This document shows positions 2,633 through 34,964 of a stretch of 41,036 nucleotides of DNA, one piece after another. Numbering within the stretch: position 1 is the stretch's first letter; every line of letters begins with the position of its first letter. The stretch is from Acidaminococcaceae bacterium (lineage in GTDB: Bacteria > Bacillota > Negativicutes > Acidaminococcales > Acidaminococcaceae). Under the pieces are notes generated by a model. The model was not told the origin of the DNA, ran no database searches, and was given only the letters and a program-made list of their open reading frames with translations. The translations under genes and the position numbers were made by a program. The stretch covers positions 1 to 41,036 of the forward strand of contig JAQVYX010000007.1 in NCBI GenBank assembly GCA_029004715.1, read 5' to 3'.

Positions 2633-3757
2633 TTATTTTTTGAAATTTTTACAATTTAGACTGCTTAAAACAAGATTGTATAAAACATTAACTCCGTGAA
2701 TTAAATCGGCGTGGTTAAAATGCATATTACGGTCATGTAGTCCGGGAGTAAGTGCACATCCTAAACCGATAAAACCGGTCTTAAGTTCGGGACGTAATTG
2801 CTTGTAAAAGTTAAAATCTTCTCCTACAGTAGTGGTGCGTTCAAGTATTAAACCAGTGCTGCCAACTTCGTTGGTAATAGATTTTTTAATCAATTCTAAA
2901 AGTTCTGGATCATCTTCGGAACCAGGACAATCACCAATTTGCTCCACTTCTGCCTTGGCACCGTAAAGCTCAGCGGTGTTTTTAATGATATGAATAACTT
3001 TTTTCTTTAGCAGTTCCATCTCAGAATTTTTTGTAGTGCGCAAATCAAAACCAAGTTCTGCAAAATCACATATAGCATTAAGTGCACCTTCACCTGTACG
3101 GAAACGGGTAGTTTTTAAACTCCAACCTTCTAGGGGGTTCATATGTAGGGCATTAATAGAGTTAACTATCGAACACCCAACATCAATGGCATTAATTCCC
3201 AAATGGGGCATGGAACCGTGAGCTGTGCGGCCTGTTATTTTAGCTTCTAACAAGGTGGCGGCAGTCCAATGTACTTGCGCGACGATTTGGCCTGAAGAGG
3301 CTAAGTCTTCTGGCATAAGGTGTAGGCCAAAAAGACAATCAATGTCGTCTATGATGCCGGTAGCAAGAAGAGCTTTAGCTCCACAACCAATTTCTTCGGC
3401 TGGCTGCATTATTATTTTAACTTTGCCACAAGTAATGCCTTTTTTGGCAATTAATTCTGCGACAGTTAGAACTATTGCCATATGAGCATCATGCCCGCAA
3501 GCATGAATGCCTATTTTTTTGTCACCCTCCGTAAAGAGCAAACAATCCATATCAGAACGCAGGCCAACGACAGGACCATCTTTTTTGCTGTCTAGGAGGC
3601 CTACAACACCTGTGCCACCAACTTCTTCGCAAACCTCATAGCCTGCTTGACGTAAAATGTTAGCGGCAAAAGCAGCGGTTTTAAATTCACAAAAAGCAGG
3701 TTCAGGTATAGAGTGTAATTGTTTCCAGATTTCATTAATACGTTCTGACAGATTCAT
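2633..3757 (-). CDS. M20-family amidohydrolase (N-acyl-amino-acid/peptide hydrolase)
   Basis: A 374-residue metallo-amidohydrolase of the M20D type (hippurate hydrolase, N-acyl-L-amino acid amidohydrolase, IAA-amino acid hydrolase). Metal-site motifs are visible: RSDMDCL near residue 67, HACGHDAHM near residue 84, QPAEEIGCGAKA near residue 117, and the lid/dimer-domain motif TAHGSMPHLGINA near residue 178. There is no signal peptide, so it is cytosolic. The start ATG has GAGGTG 7 nt upstream. It lies 12 nt downstream of the MetQ-like lipoprotein gene in one transcript, which suggests it deacylates or hydrolyses an amino acid derivative taken up by that system. The precise substrate is unknown. 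Confidence 0.87.
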   Translation of the reverse strand: MNLSERINEIWKQLHSIPEPAFCEFKTAAFAANILRQAGYEVCEEVGGTGVVGLLDSKKDGPVVGLRSDMDCLLFTEGDKKIGIHACGHDAHMAIVLTVAELIAKKGITCGKVKIIMQPAEEIGCGAKALLATGIIDDIDCLFGLHLMPEDLASSGQIVAQVHWTAATLLEAKITGRTAHGSMPHLGINAIDVGCSIVNSINALHMNPLEGWSLKTTRFRTGEGALNAICDFAELGFDLRTTKNSEMELLKKKVIHIIKNTAELYGAKAEVEQIGDCPGSEDDPELLELIKKSITNEVGSTGLILERTTTVGEDFNFYKQLRPELKTGFIGLGCALTPGLHDRNMHFNHADLIHGVNVLYNLVLSSLNCKNFKK

Positions 3758-3769
3758 GCTAACACCTCA

Positions 3770-4603
3770 CTATTCTTTCCAACCAAGGGATACAGACCCT
3801 GGGAAATGCGTTAAAATAAATTTGGCGTTTTCTTTTGATTGATATATTTTTCTTAATTGTTCTAGTCGAGGGTCTTTTAATGTTGCTTTGCGTACAACAA
3901 AAACATTAACATAAAATGAGTCAGCAGTTTCACGCAAAATAGCGTCTTTGGCTGGATTTAAGTGGGCAGAAAGGGCATAGTTAGTATTGATTGCAGCACA
4001 GGTAACATCATCCAAACTTCTAGGAATAGCAGCTGCTTCCAACTCAACTATTTTGTAATTGTGAGGATTTGAGGTAATATCATTTAAACTGGTATCGATA
4101 TCTTTAATATTTTTAACTGTAATGAGACCGGCATTGGCCAGCAGCAAAATAGCTCTGGAACCGTTAGAGGGATCGTTAGGAATAGCTATGGTGGCTCCGT
4201 CAGGTATTTTTTCACCTGGTTTTATTTTTTTAGAATAGATACCAATAGGAAACAAAGCGGTTGGGAAGGCACTAACTAAATCAAATTTAGGTTCTTTTTT
4301 TAATGTAGCATCTAGGAAGGGCTTATGTTGAAAACAGTTGCCCCAAAGTTCGCCTTGGGCTAAGGCTGTATTAGGAGTAACATAATCAGAAAATTCCATT
4401 AGTTCAATTTTCAAACCTTGCTTTGCCGCTAATTTTTTTACGTTTTCCATTATTTCAGCGTGTGGTCCGGGGGTAACGCCTATTTTAATGGTTGCAGAGG
4501 TGTCAATCTTTTTTTCAGCATTTTTTGTTTCACCGCAACCTGCTGCTACCAATGTAGTAACACATAAAACGGTTGTAATTAGAGCTTTAACAAATTTGTT
4601 CAC
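3770..4603 (-). CDS. metQ: MetQ/NlpA-family substrate-binding lipoprotein
   Basis: A 277-residue lipoprotein of the NlpA family, the binding component of D/L-methionine ABC importers. I place the start at the GTG at 4603-4601, because AAAGGGGAGA lies 5 nt before it; an in-frame ATG at 4636 would put 11 extra residues ahead of the signal peptide. The signal peptide runs from VNKFVKALI to the lipobox VAAGC, where the Cys would be lipidated. Family-typical stretches follow: IKIGVTPGPHAEIMENVKKLA and ELWGNCFQHKPFLD. No MetN or MetI gene lies beside it, so the partner transporter must be elsewhere. The preceding leader (4659-4836) can terminate transcription. Methionine is the likely but not proven ligand. 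Confidence 0.85.
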   Translation of the reverse strand: MNKFVKALITTVLCVTTLVAAGCGETKNAEKKIDTSATIKIGVTPGPHAEIMENVKKLAAKQGLKIELMEFSDYVTPNTALAQGELWGNCFQHKPFLDATLKKEPKFDLVSAFPTALFPIGIYSKKIKPGEKIPDGATIAIPNDPSNGSRAILLLANAGLITVKNIKDIDTSLNDITSNPHNYKIVELEAAAIPRSLDDVTCAAINTNYALSAHLNPAKDAILRETADSFYVNVFVVRKATLKDPRLEQLRKIYQSKENAKFILTHFPGSVSLGWKE

Positions 4604-4658: not shown

Positions 4659-4696
4659 AAAAAGAAAAAAGGTAGGAAACCAAGTGGCTTCCTACC
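4659..4696 (-). terminator. Attenuator-type terminator in the metQ leader
   Basis: Read on the minus strand, GGTAGGAAGCC (4696-4686) pairs with GGTTTCCTACC (4681-4671) over 11 bp including one G-U, with loop ACTT, followed by TTTTTTCTTTTT. It lies about 55 nt before the metQ start and after a strong promoter, so it must be read through for metQ expression. A competing pairing with the leader ORF is described in the findings. Confidence 0.85.
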
Positions 4697-4725
4697 GCAA
4701 ACTACAGGTAATTGGTGGGCAATTG

Positions 4726-4836
4726 CTACACACAACCTAAAGAAAAAGCCAACGCTAGAATACTAGAATATAAGAAGAATTTGTATCTGTTATTGCACAT
4801 ATCCATACTAAGTATTTGAGCGTGGTAATTATTCAT
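4726..4836 (-). CDS. Putative 36-residue leader peptide upstream of metQ
   Basis: A short ORF between the minus-strand promoter and the attenuator. It starts with ATG at 4836-4834, preceded at 8 nt by AGGGG, and ends in TAG at 4728-4726. The N-terminal half contains Met-Asp-Met-Cys at residues 11-14. The C-terminal half is hydrophobic and resembles a lipoprotein signal, ending in ILALAFSLGCV. The stop codon lies about 30 nt before the terminator stem. Position, ribosome-binding site and a 9-bp complementarity between codons 28-31 and the terminator arm suggest a regulatory peptide rather than a functional protein. I recognise no family. It could also be fortuitous. Confidence 0.5.
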   Translation of the reverse strand: MNNYHAQILSMDMCNNRYKFFLYSSILALAFSLGCV

Positions 4837-4872
4837 GATGTGTACCCCTGTTAGCTTCTAGATTATGAACAT

Positions 4873-4901
4873 ATTTTACGCTTTTAGAATTATCTTGTCA
4901 A
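4873..4901 (-). promoter_or_regulatory. Sigma-A promoter for the metQ leader
   Basis: On the minus strand, TTGACA (4901-4896) is separated by 17 nt from TAAAAT (4878-4873). Transcription would begin near 4866 and run through the leader ORF and attenuator. Confidence 0.75.
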
Positions 4902-4952: not shown

Positions 4953-4989
4953 ATTCACCATAACAATAAATAATATTTACCACAAAAAC

Positions 4990-5238
4990 ATTGACGGGAA
5001 TAAGATGTGATTGGCAAGCCTTTAGAGAGTCGGCGCTTGGTGCAAGCTGATGGTTGCTTTCGCATGTATACTCATCCCCGAGTTGCTTATTTGATATGTA
5101 GAATAAGACGAGTGGCGTCGTTACACGCTAGGGCCTTGTTGGAGGTCGAGAGGGTTGCTTGCATTATAGACAACCGAATTAGGGTGGTACCGCGTGGAAT
5201 ATTCCCCGCCCCTATACTTTGTATGGGGCGGTTTTTTT
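4990..5238 (+). promoter_or_regulatory. T-box riboswitch (leucine-type) controlling leuA
   Basis: The conserved T-box bulge AGGGTGGTACCGCG is at 5181-5194. It is followed by a terminator, CCGCCCC pairing with GGGGCGG and then a T-run ending near 5237. Stem I probably closes by pairing GAATAAG near 4995 with CTTATTT near 5086. A CTC at 5071-5073 on the 3' side of stem I is a reasonable leucine specifier, which fits the downstream gene; I did not fold the RNA, so the specifier is tentative. Binding of uncharged tRNA-Leu should stabilise the antiterminator and switch on leuA. Confidence 0.88.
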
Positions 5239-29603: not shown

Positions 29604-30415
29604 AAAATATTGGAAATGTTACTTTTATTGGCTGTGGTTCCATGGGAGAAGCAATTTTAAAAGGTATTTTGGGTGCAAAGATGACCAAAGCCGAAGAAAT
29701 TAGCGTAAGTTTACCGACGAAATCTAGACGGGATTATCTAGCTAAAGAATATGGTGTGAAAACTTTTTCTGAAAATACCGAAGCAGTAATTAATGCTGAT
29801 GTGGTTATTTTGGCTATTAAACCACAAATGTTTACCAATGCTATTACTGCGGAAGTTGTCGCCGCTATTCCTGAAAATGCTATAGTGGTATCTATTATGG
29901 GCTCCGTGGATTTAGTTAAATTACATGGAATAATACCCAAACAGGTTATTATTCGTGTTATGCCCAATACGCCATTGGCAGTAGGGGCAGGAATGACGGC
30001 AATTGCGCCTGATGATATTGCTACGCGTAGCAATATTGAGACGGTTAAGGCTATTTTTTGCTCGTGTGGAGAGGTTGTGGAAGCACAAGAGTCTTCTATG
30101 GAAGCAATTACAGCTATTAGTGGTTGTGGACCAGGGTATGTATTTATGCTTATTGATGCTTTAGCGGATGCAGGTGTTAATGCAGGCTTAACAAGAGCTT
30201 TGTCCATTAAGTTGGCGGCTCAAACTTTTGCTGGGGCCGGTAAGATGGCTGTTGAAACTGGTCTTCATCCTGCTCAATTACGTGATCAGGTAACATCACC
30301 GGGTGGCACGACCATTGCCGGTATTCACGCTTTGGAATTACATGGCGTACGTGGAGCTATGTATGATGCAGTTAATGCTGTTTTAGTACGCAGCGAGAAA
30401 CTAAAGGGTAAGTAA
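29591..30415 (+). CDS. proC: Pyrroline-5-carboxylate reductase
   Basis: A 274-residue NADPH-dependent enzyme catalysing the last step of proline synthesis. The Rossmann motif is VTFIGCGSMGEAILKGIL (about 10-26). The C-terminal dimer/active-site region includes ISGCGPGYVFMLIDALADAGVNAGL and DQVTSPGGTTIAGIHALE. The start ATG lies within the last codons of sepF, so translation is likely coupled. Its presence inside the division cluster is a recurrent Firmicute arrangement. Confidence 0.96.
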   Translation: MEKLKNIGNVTFIGCGSMGEAILKGILGAKMTKAEEISVSLPTKSRRDYLAKEYGVKTFSENTEAVINADVVILAIKPQMFTNAITAEVVAAIPENAIVVSIMGSVDLVKLHGIIPKQVIIRVMPNTPLAVGAGMTAIAPDDIATRSNIETVKAIFCSCGEVVEAQESSMEAITAISGCGPGYVFMLIDALADAGVNAGLTRALSIKLAAQTFAGAGKMAVETGLHPAQLRDQVTSPGGTTIAGIHALELHGVRGAMYDAVNAVLVRSEKLKGK

Positions 30416-31924: not shown

Positions 31925-32172
31925 AATGAATAAAGCGATGATAGAGACAGTACTTTGTCAGAGGCCTGAAGAGCGAAGCGGAGACGGTGTGAGTCCGCGA
32001 GGAATTTAGCAAAGAAAAATCACTCTAGAGCTGCTTGCCTGAAATAATAGTAGGACAAGCCGTGTAATGAACGTTAAAGCATTTTTGAGTGGCATCATTA
32101 GGTGTCATTAGGGTGGTACCACGGGTTATTTAGTCTCGTCCCTTTTGGGATAGGGGCTTTATTTTTTTTGGA
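31925..32172 (+). promoter_or_regulatory. T-box riboswitch (isoleucine-type) controlling ileS
   Basis: The T-box bulge AGGGTGGTACCACG is at 32110-32123. The competing terminator pairs AGTCTC..TCCC (from 32132) with GGGA..GGGGCT (to 32158) and ends in a T-run. The proximal stem I shows the usual AGAG-rich 5' strand. ATC at 32019-32021, on the 3' side after GAAAA, is a good isoleucine specifier and matches the downstream gene. Uncharged tRNA-Ile should promote read-through. Confidence 0.92.
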
Positions 32173-32183
32173 GGTGTAGTATT

Positions 32184-34964
32184 GTGGATTATGGTAAAAC
32201 ATTAAATTTGCCGAAAACCGAATTCCCTATGCGAGCAGGGTTGCCGGAAAGAGAACCAGGAGTTTTAGATTTCTGGGAAGAAAACAAAATTTATGAGAAA
32301 AAACAAGCTTTGCATGCAGGGAACGAAAAATTTGTTTTGCATGATGGACCGCCTTATGCTAATGGCAGGATTCATATGGGTACGGCTTTAAATAAAATTT
32401 TAAAAGATATTGTTATAAAATATAAATATGCCCAAGGATTTGACACTCCTTATGTTCCCGGTTGGGATACTCATGGTATGCCAATTGAACATGCTGCTAT
32501 AAAAAATTTAGGCTTGGATCGTCATGCTTTAGACATTCTTGTTTTGCGCAATGAATGTCGTAACTATGCGTTAGGTTGGGTAGATCAACAACGCAAAGAT
32601 TTCAAACGCTTAGGCGTTTTAGGTGATTGGGAAAATCCTTATATTACTTTGAAGCCGGCTTATGAAGAAAGACAGATTAGAGTTTTTGGAAAAATGGCGA
32701 CAAAAGGATATATTTATAAAGGCAAAAAAGCTGTTTATTGGTGCCCTCATTGCGAGACTGCTTTGGCAGAAGCTGAAATTGAATATGGTGAGGAAAAATC
32801 TCCGGCTATTTTTGTTAAATTTCCTTTGAAAGATGACAAAGGCTTGTTGCCTGAAGCAGCGAAAGGGAAAAATGTTTTTGTAGTTATTTGGACAACGACT
32901 CCCTGGACTTTACCTGCTAATGTGGCCATTGCTTTAAATCCTGATTTTGAATATTCTTGGGTAGAATCAGAAGGCGAAGTTTACCTGATGGCTAGTGATT
33001 TGTTAGAAGCTGTCGGTAAAGTTTGTAAACGCGAATTTACTAACGTGTTGGGAACGGTTATGGGCAAAGAGCTAGAATTTGCCGTAGCGCGTCATCCATT
33101 TATGGAACGTGATTCTTTAGTTGTATTAGCGGATTATGTTACATTAGATGCAGGTAGTGGTTGTGTACATACGGCTCCAGGACATGGGCAAGAGGATTTC
33201 GAAACCGGGTTGCGTTACAAATTACCAATTATTTCACCTGTAGATGCTTCCGGTAAATTAACAGAAGAGGCCGGTCCTTTATTTGCCGGTATGAATGTCT
33301 TTGATGCTAATATCCCAGTGTTAAAACATTTAGCATCAATTAATGCACTTTTGGGTAAGGAAAATATTCGTCACCAATATGCTCATTGTTGGCGCTGCAA
33401 GGAACCAATTATTTATCGTGCTACTGAGCAATGGTTTGCATCTGTAGATGGTTTTAGAGAAGCTGCTTTGAATGCTATAGCTAATGAAGTTAAATGGATT
33501 CCTGCTTGGGGTGAGTCTCGTATTCACAATATGGTTGCTGATCGTCGTGATTGGTGCATTTCCCGCCAACGTGTTTGGGGCGTACCTATTCCAATTTTTT
33601 ATTGTGAAGACTGTAATGAACCTTTGATCAATGATGAGACTATTGATGCTGTAGCAACCTTGTTTGGTAAGGAAGGTTCTGACGCTTGGTGGTCACATAC
33701 GGCAGAAGAAATTTTACCGGAAGGAACAAAATGCCCTAAATGCGGACATACACATTTTCGGAAAGAAACGGACATCATGGATGTTTGGTTTGACAGTGGT
33801 TCTTCCCACGAAGCTGTATTAAAAGAACGTCCGGAGTTGAAATGGCCCGCAGATATGTATCTAGAAGGCAGTGACCAACATCGCGGTTGGTTCCAATCTT
33901 CTTTGCTCACGTCTATTGCTTGTACAGGAAAAGCTCCTTACAAATCTGTTTTGACTCATGGTTATGTAGTAGATGGAGAAGGCAAGAAAATGTCTAAGTC
34001 AGTGGGCAATACTGTAGCTCCTGACGATGTTATTAAACAATATGGTGCTGACGTTGTGCGTTTGTGGGCGGCATCATCTGATTATAAAGCAGACGTAAGA
34101 ATTTCTAAGGAAATTTTGAAACAGCTTTCTGAAGTTTATCGCAAGATACGTAATACCATTCGCTATATTTTGGGTAATACCAGCGACTTTGATTATGCTA
34201 CAGAAAAAGTTGCTTTTGCAGATATGGAAGAACTTGATCGTTGGGCTTTAATGCATACGCAACTTTTGAAAAAAGAAGTTAAGGCGGCTTATGAGGCTTA
34301 TGATTTCTATATTTTGTATCATGCTATTCACAATTTCTGCACTGTAGAAATGAGTGCTTTTTATCTAGATATTATTAAAGACAGACTGTATGCTTCTAAG
34401 GCTGATGCCAAGGAAAGACGTAGTGCTCAGACTGCTATGTATGAAATAATGAATGATTTGATTGTTATGCTAATGCCTGTACTTAGTTTTACAATGGAAG
34501 AAGTTTATCAGTTTATGACGAAGCCAGCTAATGCTCCTGAGAGTGTACAAATGCTCCCTTGGCCTAGTATGCATGAAGAATATATTGATGAAGCGTTGGA
34601 AACTAAATGGGATGAATTCATTGAAATCCGTGGCGAAATAACTAAGATTTTAGAAAATGCTCGTCGTGCTAAAACAATTGGACATTCTTTGGATGCCAAA
34701 GTGGAATTGCATGCAACTGATGAAGCTTTGCGTATCCTAAAAACTGTGGAAAAAGATTTAGCTAACCTACTTATTGTTTCTCAAGCTAGCGTTGTTGCCG
34801 GGTTAGAAGGCGGGACCGAGGCTACAGGACGTGAAGACCTAATGGTAACGGTAAAGGCCGCAGAAGGTAAAAAATGTGAAAGATGCTGGATTTATAGTGA
34901 TAGCGTAGGAGAAGATGCAGAACATCCAACCCTTTGCCATCGTTGTGTAGAAGTTCTTAAATAA
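32184..34964 (+). CDS. ileS: Isoleucyl-tRNA synthetase
   Basis: A 926-residue class I aminoacyl-tRNA synthetase of bacterial type 1. The HIGH motif is in [12 protein letters not shown] (about residue 57), the editing CP1 domain spans roughly 190-390 with [16 protein letters not shown], and KMSKS is in [12 protein letters not shown]. The C-terminal zinc finger is [24 protein letters not shown]. The start is GTG behind GGAGGTG. It is a single-gene transcript under its own T-box and ends at a strong terminator. Confidence 0.97.

Follow-up and report, generated by a model that had tools for sequence, protein, structure and literature searches.

The metQ gene in the window analysed here (the whole stretch of 41,036 nucleotides, contig JAQVYX010000007.1 of an Acidaminococcaceae bacterium) probably lies behind a real, lineage-specific transcription attenuator. 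Our best overall explanation, held with slightly less assurance, is that metQ and the adjacent M20-family amidohydrolase gene form a unit controlled by premature termination at a hairpin at 4696-4671. Such control of metQ is likely because a strong terminator is combined with no known aptamer and no clear second promoter. On the minus strand the parts follow one another as promoter (4901-4873), short open reading frame (ORF; 4836-4726), terminator (4696-4671), U-tract (to 4659) and metQ start (4603), and the order of promoter, ORF and terminator described in an earlier sequence-only reading is present in full. That reading had gone on to couple metQ to methionine or cysteine supply through a leader peptide; the attenuator layout stands, whereas the ORF, its Shine-Dalgarno sequence and the pairings are lost in a congener. 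Translation of the 36-codon ORF as the sensor is a tentative proposal that we rather doubt, and a signal that is specifically methionine or cysteine is improbable. The principal features, all on the minus strand, are the following:

4873..4901, minus strand: sigma-70-type promoter (TTGACA, 17 nt, TAAAAT), 11/12 consensus match.
4671..4696, minus strand: intrinsic terminator, 11 bp, loop of 4, U-tract 4670-4659, -17.8 kcal/mol.
3770..4603, minus strand: metQ-type substrate-binding lipoprotein, GTG start (Pfam NlpA lipoprotein, 275.6 bits).
2633..3757, minus strand: M20-family amidohydrolase (TIGR01891, above cut-off).

The promoter is as strong as had been claimed, and transcription would start near 4866. 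It is the only clear promoter before metQ; a clear second one was looked for in the leader and none was found, and no gene on the same strand lies upstream. The 11-bp terminator is equally real and strongly non-random. Eleven perfect pairs and a loop of four are followed by TTTTTTCTTTTT, an 11-bp stem with a U-tract arose in 0 of 1000 dinucleotide shuffles of the leader, and a hairpin as stable arose in 0 of 500 shuffles. The U-tract is present on the metQ-facing side only, and the hairpin separates the metQ promoter from metQ, as expected of a leader-peptide attenuator.

A fundamental question is which device would sense the signal. A full Rfam scan of the window found no S-box, T-box or other relevant aptamer in the metQ leader, and no relevant family was returned when the leaders of both congeners were scanned permissively, with E up to 10. 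A degenerate T-box was considered and rejected, since RF00230 gave no match on the minus strand up to the same E; the leader gave no match to a SAM aptamer. The claimed absence of an S-box or T-box is thus borne out, and a known aptamer covering the leader, the case that the sequence-only reading had set against itself, was looked for and none was found. No copy of the leader was found elsewhere in the source genome, which has 13 T-box matches and 4 SAM riboswitches. One SAM riboswitch lies directly before another metQ paralogue (contig C34), and in the window a T-box with an AUC (Ile) specifier, at 31929-32146, precedes an ileS-like gene starting near 32184. A neighboring T-box belongs to leuA, which diverges from metQ:

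4982..5216, plus strand: T-box leader of divergent leuA (RF00230, 117.9 bits), outside the metQ leader.

The MetQ protein is related to solved MetQ structures and scores under the NCBIfam cut-offs for MetQ proper, and methionine is therefore its likely, not established, substrate. The M20 amidohydrolase gene stands next downstream of metQ, as it does in eleven of the twelve closest homologues, and the two genes probably form one operon. Neither metN nor metI adjoins this metQ (pair at 2633-4603), the M20 amidohydrolase standing there instead. Recurrence of the metQ-M20 pair in most close family homologues suggests that the substrate may be an acylated or peptide form.

In the mechanism we favor, the promoter at 4901-4873 would drive transcription of the metQ-M20 unit, which would be controlled by a terminator that acts in the cell and is itself regulated. 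Termination at 4696-4671 would be the default, because the terminator is far stabler than its alternatives and the fold of the full leader keeps its 5' arm free, and read-through would follow when the leader cannot take its full fold. The simplest route would make the ribosome the regulator, such that, positioned anywhere in the initial two thirds of the ORF, it would leave 4751-4743 available for pairing with the arm of the terminator. Two further features enter here:

4726..4836, minus strand: candidate leader peptide MNNYHAQILSMDMCNNRYKFFLYSSILALAFSLGCV, 36 codons, ATG, AGGGG upstream, no family match.
4743..4751, minus strand: segment TGGCTTTTT proposed as antiterminator, codons 29-32, -9.2 kcal/mol when paired with 4693-4685.

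The segment TGGCTTTTT (4751-4743) does pair with AGGAAGCCA (4693-4685) over 9 bp with two G-U pairs, as had been described, although it covers codons 29-32 rather than 28-31. Its partner was taken to be the 5' arm of the terminator, which holds for 8 of the 9 bases, base 4685 sitting in the loop. The length of this pairing is at chance level: a run of at least 9 bp against the terminator arm plus loop occurs in 13% of shuffles, and a duplex with the arm that is at least as stable occurs in 68%. Ribosome positions were followed in two folding models, one in which only RNA downstream of the ribosome may pair and one in which upstream RNA is also free to do so. With downstream RNA only, the antiterminator forms with a probability of mostly 0.8-1.0 when the ribosome is at codons 1-24 (0.39 at codon 20) and is gone from codon 26 onward. 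With upstream pairing allowed, the probability is about 0.12 or less for a ribosome at codons 2-37. The proposal that an early ribosome frees the antiterminator and a late one masks it consequently holds in the first model and fails in the second; a ribosome at the stop codon masks 4751-4743 only partly. In both models, the terminator wins at equilibrium in all cases once its 3' arm is out.

An alternative fold of the leader is nonetheless present. The terminator arm is almost unpaired in the full leader (0.44 of 11 nt), whereas it is paired (8.98 of 11 nt) when the leader is cut at 4782. Freedom of the arm in the full leader together with its capture in the cut one is found in 0.1% of shuffles, or 2.1% under looser limits; this joint statistic was picked after the fold had been seen and therefore counts as suggestive only.

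Is the ORF itself more than an accident? It runs from an ATG at 4836 to a TAG ending at 4726 with AGGGG 8 nt upstream, and the 36-codon ORF with a ribosome-binding site that had been claimed exists as a predicted ORF. Shuffled leaders contain an ATG ORF of at least 36 codons in 4.7% of cases, and in 0.3% one that also has a Shine-Dalgarno sequence by a loose definition; the ORF is thus mildly non-random and a candidate leader peptide of putative translation. Its codon usage is close to that of random codons, and each 36-codon piece cut from six genes of the window scores higher; the peptide matched none of the protein families searched. The succession M11-D12-M13-C14 is correct as reported. 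The Met and Cys codons as a sensor signal fare worse: two internal Met and two internal Cys codons make 4 of 35 (P = 0.14), which is the chance level and no enrichment of control codons.

One alternative hypothesis is that the hairpin is an unregulated partial terminator that just lowers metQ expression, with an ORF that arose by chance and no sensing of methionine or cysteine. Codon usage, Met/Cys content and antiterminator pairing, all at chance level, would agree with this, as would the failure of the ORF and pairings to be conserved in the congener. However, an ORF of such length with a Shine-Dalgarno sequence is rare in shuffles, as given above, and all three genomes with divergent leuA and metQ have a terminator-like hairpin, in one of them within a Met T-box. 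We regard this explanation as a serious but doubtful one, and regulated termination at 4696-4671 remains our preferred reading.

Conservation was assessed between two genomes of the genus, the congener (G001) being represented by contig JAAYAE010000111.1, titled as an Acholeplasmataceae MAG. The MetQ search took in sixty genomes from the family, the order and the class as well as GTDB 220, and leader DNA was searched across the family. No third leader of the genus emerged from the GTDB 220 MetQ scan, the family-wide DNA search or a viral-contig pattern scan. The two MetQ proteins are 88% identical and 62 of 97 four-fold degenerate sites of metQ differ; these sites are saturated, and neutral sequence therefore holds no signal between this pair. 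Conservation is strong across the promoter and the region where transcription would start, taking in -35, -10 and the sequence down to 4862, and the alignment continues into the leader:

4812..4866, minus strand: leader head, first ~55 nt, aligning with the congener above the shuffled null.

The score of this head alignment is reached by 0.2% of shuffles. Farther on, at 4811-4686, the alignment is no better than for shuffled sequence, 19% of shuffles scoring as well; the terminator arm, the antiterminator segment and the greater part of the ORF all fall within this region. At the aligned places the congener has ATT for ATG and CGAAG for AGGGG, and it lacks the antiterminator and terminator pairings of the source leader. 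The sequence-only reading had looked to relatives for conservation of the ORF, the Met/Cys codons and both pairings, none of which is kept in this one congener. It had also named a kept hairpin with a lost ORF or pairing as the adverse outcome, and here the ORF and pairing are indeed lost but the hairpin is the congener's own: a 10-bp stem of -13.3 kcal/mol, accompanied by a T-run, that lies 200-175 nt ahead of metQ and is equalled in 0 of 500 shuffles. That hairpin and T-run fall inside a frame reading Cys-Met-Cys-Ala-Ala-Cys. Two counterparts of the ORF were considered in the congener and set aside: the frame aligned to it is open for 33 codons with Cys-Met-Cys, has no standard start there and crosses the congener's hairpin, and an in-frame ATG with GGAAG opens 19 codons and was judged unconvincing. 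The leader-peptide model is weakly supported overall, and those of its predictions that comparison could test failed in this one congener; with a single congener to compare, a fast-evolving form of leader-peptide attenuation is possible.

Could another regulator act on this leader? An undescribed riboswitch or an attenuator worked by an RNA-binding protein, with the ORF incidental, would accord with conservation of the first ~55 nt and not of the ORF body, with the bistable folds of the leader, and with an ORF whose translation is putative. We consider it unlikely, as the leader as a whole folds with unremarkable energy (z -0.9), no shared structure is evident in the congener leader and Rfam gave no relevant match up to E 10 in either genome. 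A repressor is less probable again. It would bind an operator overlapping -10/+1 (conserved TATGTTCATAAT) and leave the terminator as background, and AAAAGCGTARAATATGTTCATAATC is almost identical in both congeners. However, any promoter would be expected to conserve its -10 and start region; each of the two congeners has a single copy of the exact 12-mer, so that there is no regulon, and in the rest of the order the longer element gave just two chance-like matches with 2 mismatches.

Attenuation of metQ by premature termination, the explanation we retain, also appears at this locus in a related genus. In an Acidaminococcaceae MAG of another genus (G011, contig JALCSJ010000003), leuA and metQ are divergent and each has its own T-box. 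The one before metQ, at 30151-30395 (C3), has an AUG (Met) specifier and the one before leuA a CUC (Leu) specifier, both assigned via the Rfam alignment column. The anatomy indicates methionine control by attenuation in this neighboring genus and makes a methionine link plausible for the equivalent metQ studied here. Divergent leuA and metQ were found in three genomes, all with a terminator-like hairpin between promoter and metQ. The other family orthologues have no such terminator within the metQ leader, except for one that immediately follows a tRNA gene upstream, and in several the promoter is apparently directly upstream of metQ. A Met T-box in one genus and a leader without a T-box in the other suggest that attenuation recurs at the locus while the sensing device differs, the sensing part appearing to evolve fast. 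It would take more to hold that the Acidaminococcaceae metQ locus uses a tRNA-Met T-box and a ribosome-sensing Met/Cys leader peptide as alternative devices, the latter outside the known groups, and we think this improbable.

As matters stand, the leader is one more attenuator without an assigned sensor. If the leader peptide works, the locus would represent a compact device swap between a Met T-box in one genus and a leader ORF in its neighbor, and the list of amino acids so sensed in Firmicutes would grow by methionine or cysteine. Among open-licence papers, a literature search turned up none that deals with a methionine leader peptide. Cysteine leader peptides have been proposed in Actinobacteria (PMC1262725), where, as in the source leader, a short ORF that includes Cys codons stands ahead of sulfur genes; unlike the source leader, they have Cys runs close to the stop codon and lack a clear terminator hairpin. 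The S-box/SAM riboswitch (RF00162), with its four copies in the source genome, one of them before a metQ paralogue, is absent from the leader studied. The T-box (RF00230, AUG) of metQ in G011 has in common the leuA/metQ divergence, the gene type and the anatomy of premature termination, whereas the source leader lacks T-box sequence and structure. The closest systems are the ribosome-mediated leader-peptide attenuators of S. aureus ilv-leu, with a leucine-rich peptide (PMC5794164), and of Bacillus hisS*/hisZ (PMC2965389), which share the promoter, the short ORF with a Shine-Dalgarno sequence, the downstream terminator and a possible alternative pairing. Control codons are numerous in their peptides (Leu/Ile, His runs) and are shared among relatives, against two internal Met codons and two Cys codons in the 36-codon ORF here, and the S. 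aureus ilv-leu terminator is conserved, whereas in the source leader nothing past the head is conserved in the one congener. Among Firmicutes hisS paralogues T-boxes have been replaced by leader peptides, and syntenic genes can swap sensing devices yet keep premature termination (PMC2965389); like the leader-peptide attenuators of Firmicutes, the source leader sits where relatives have a T-box.
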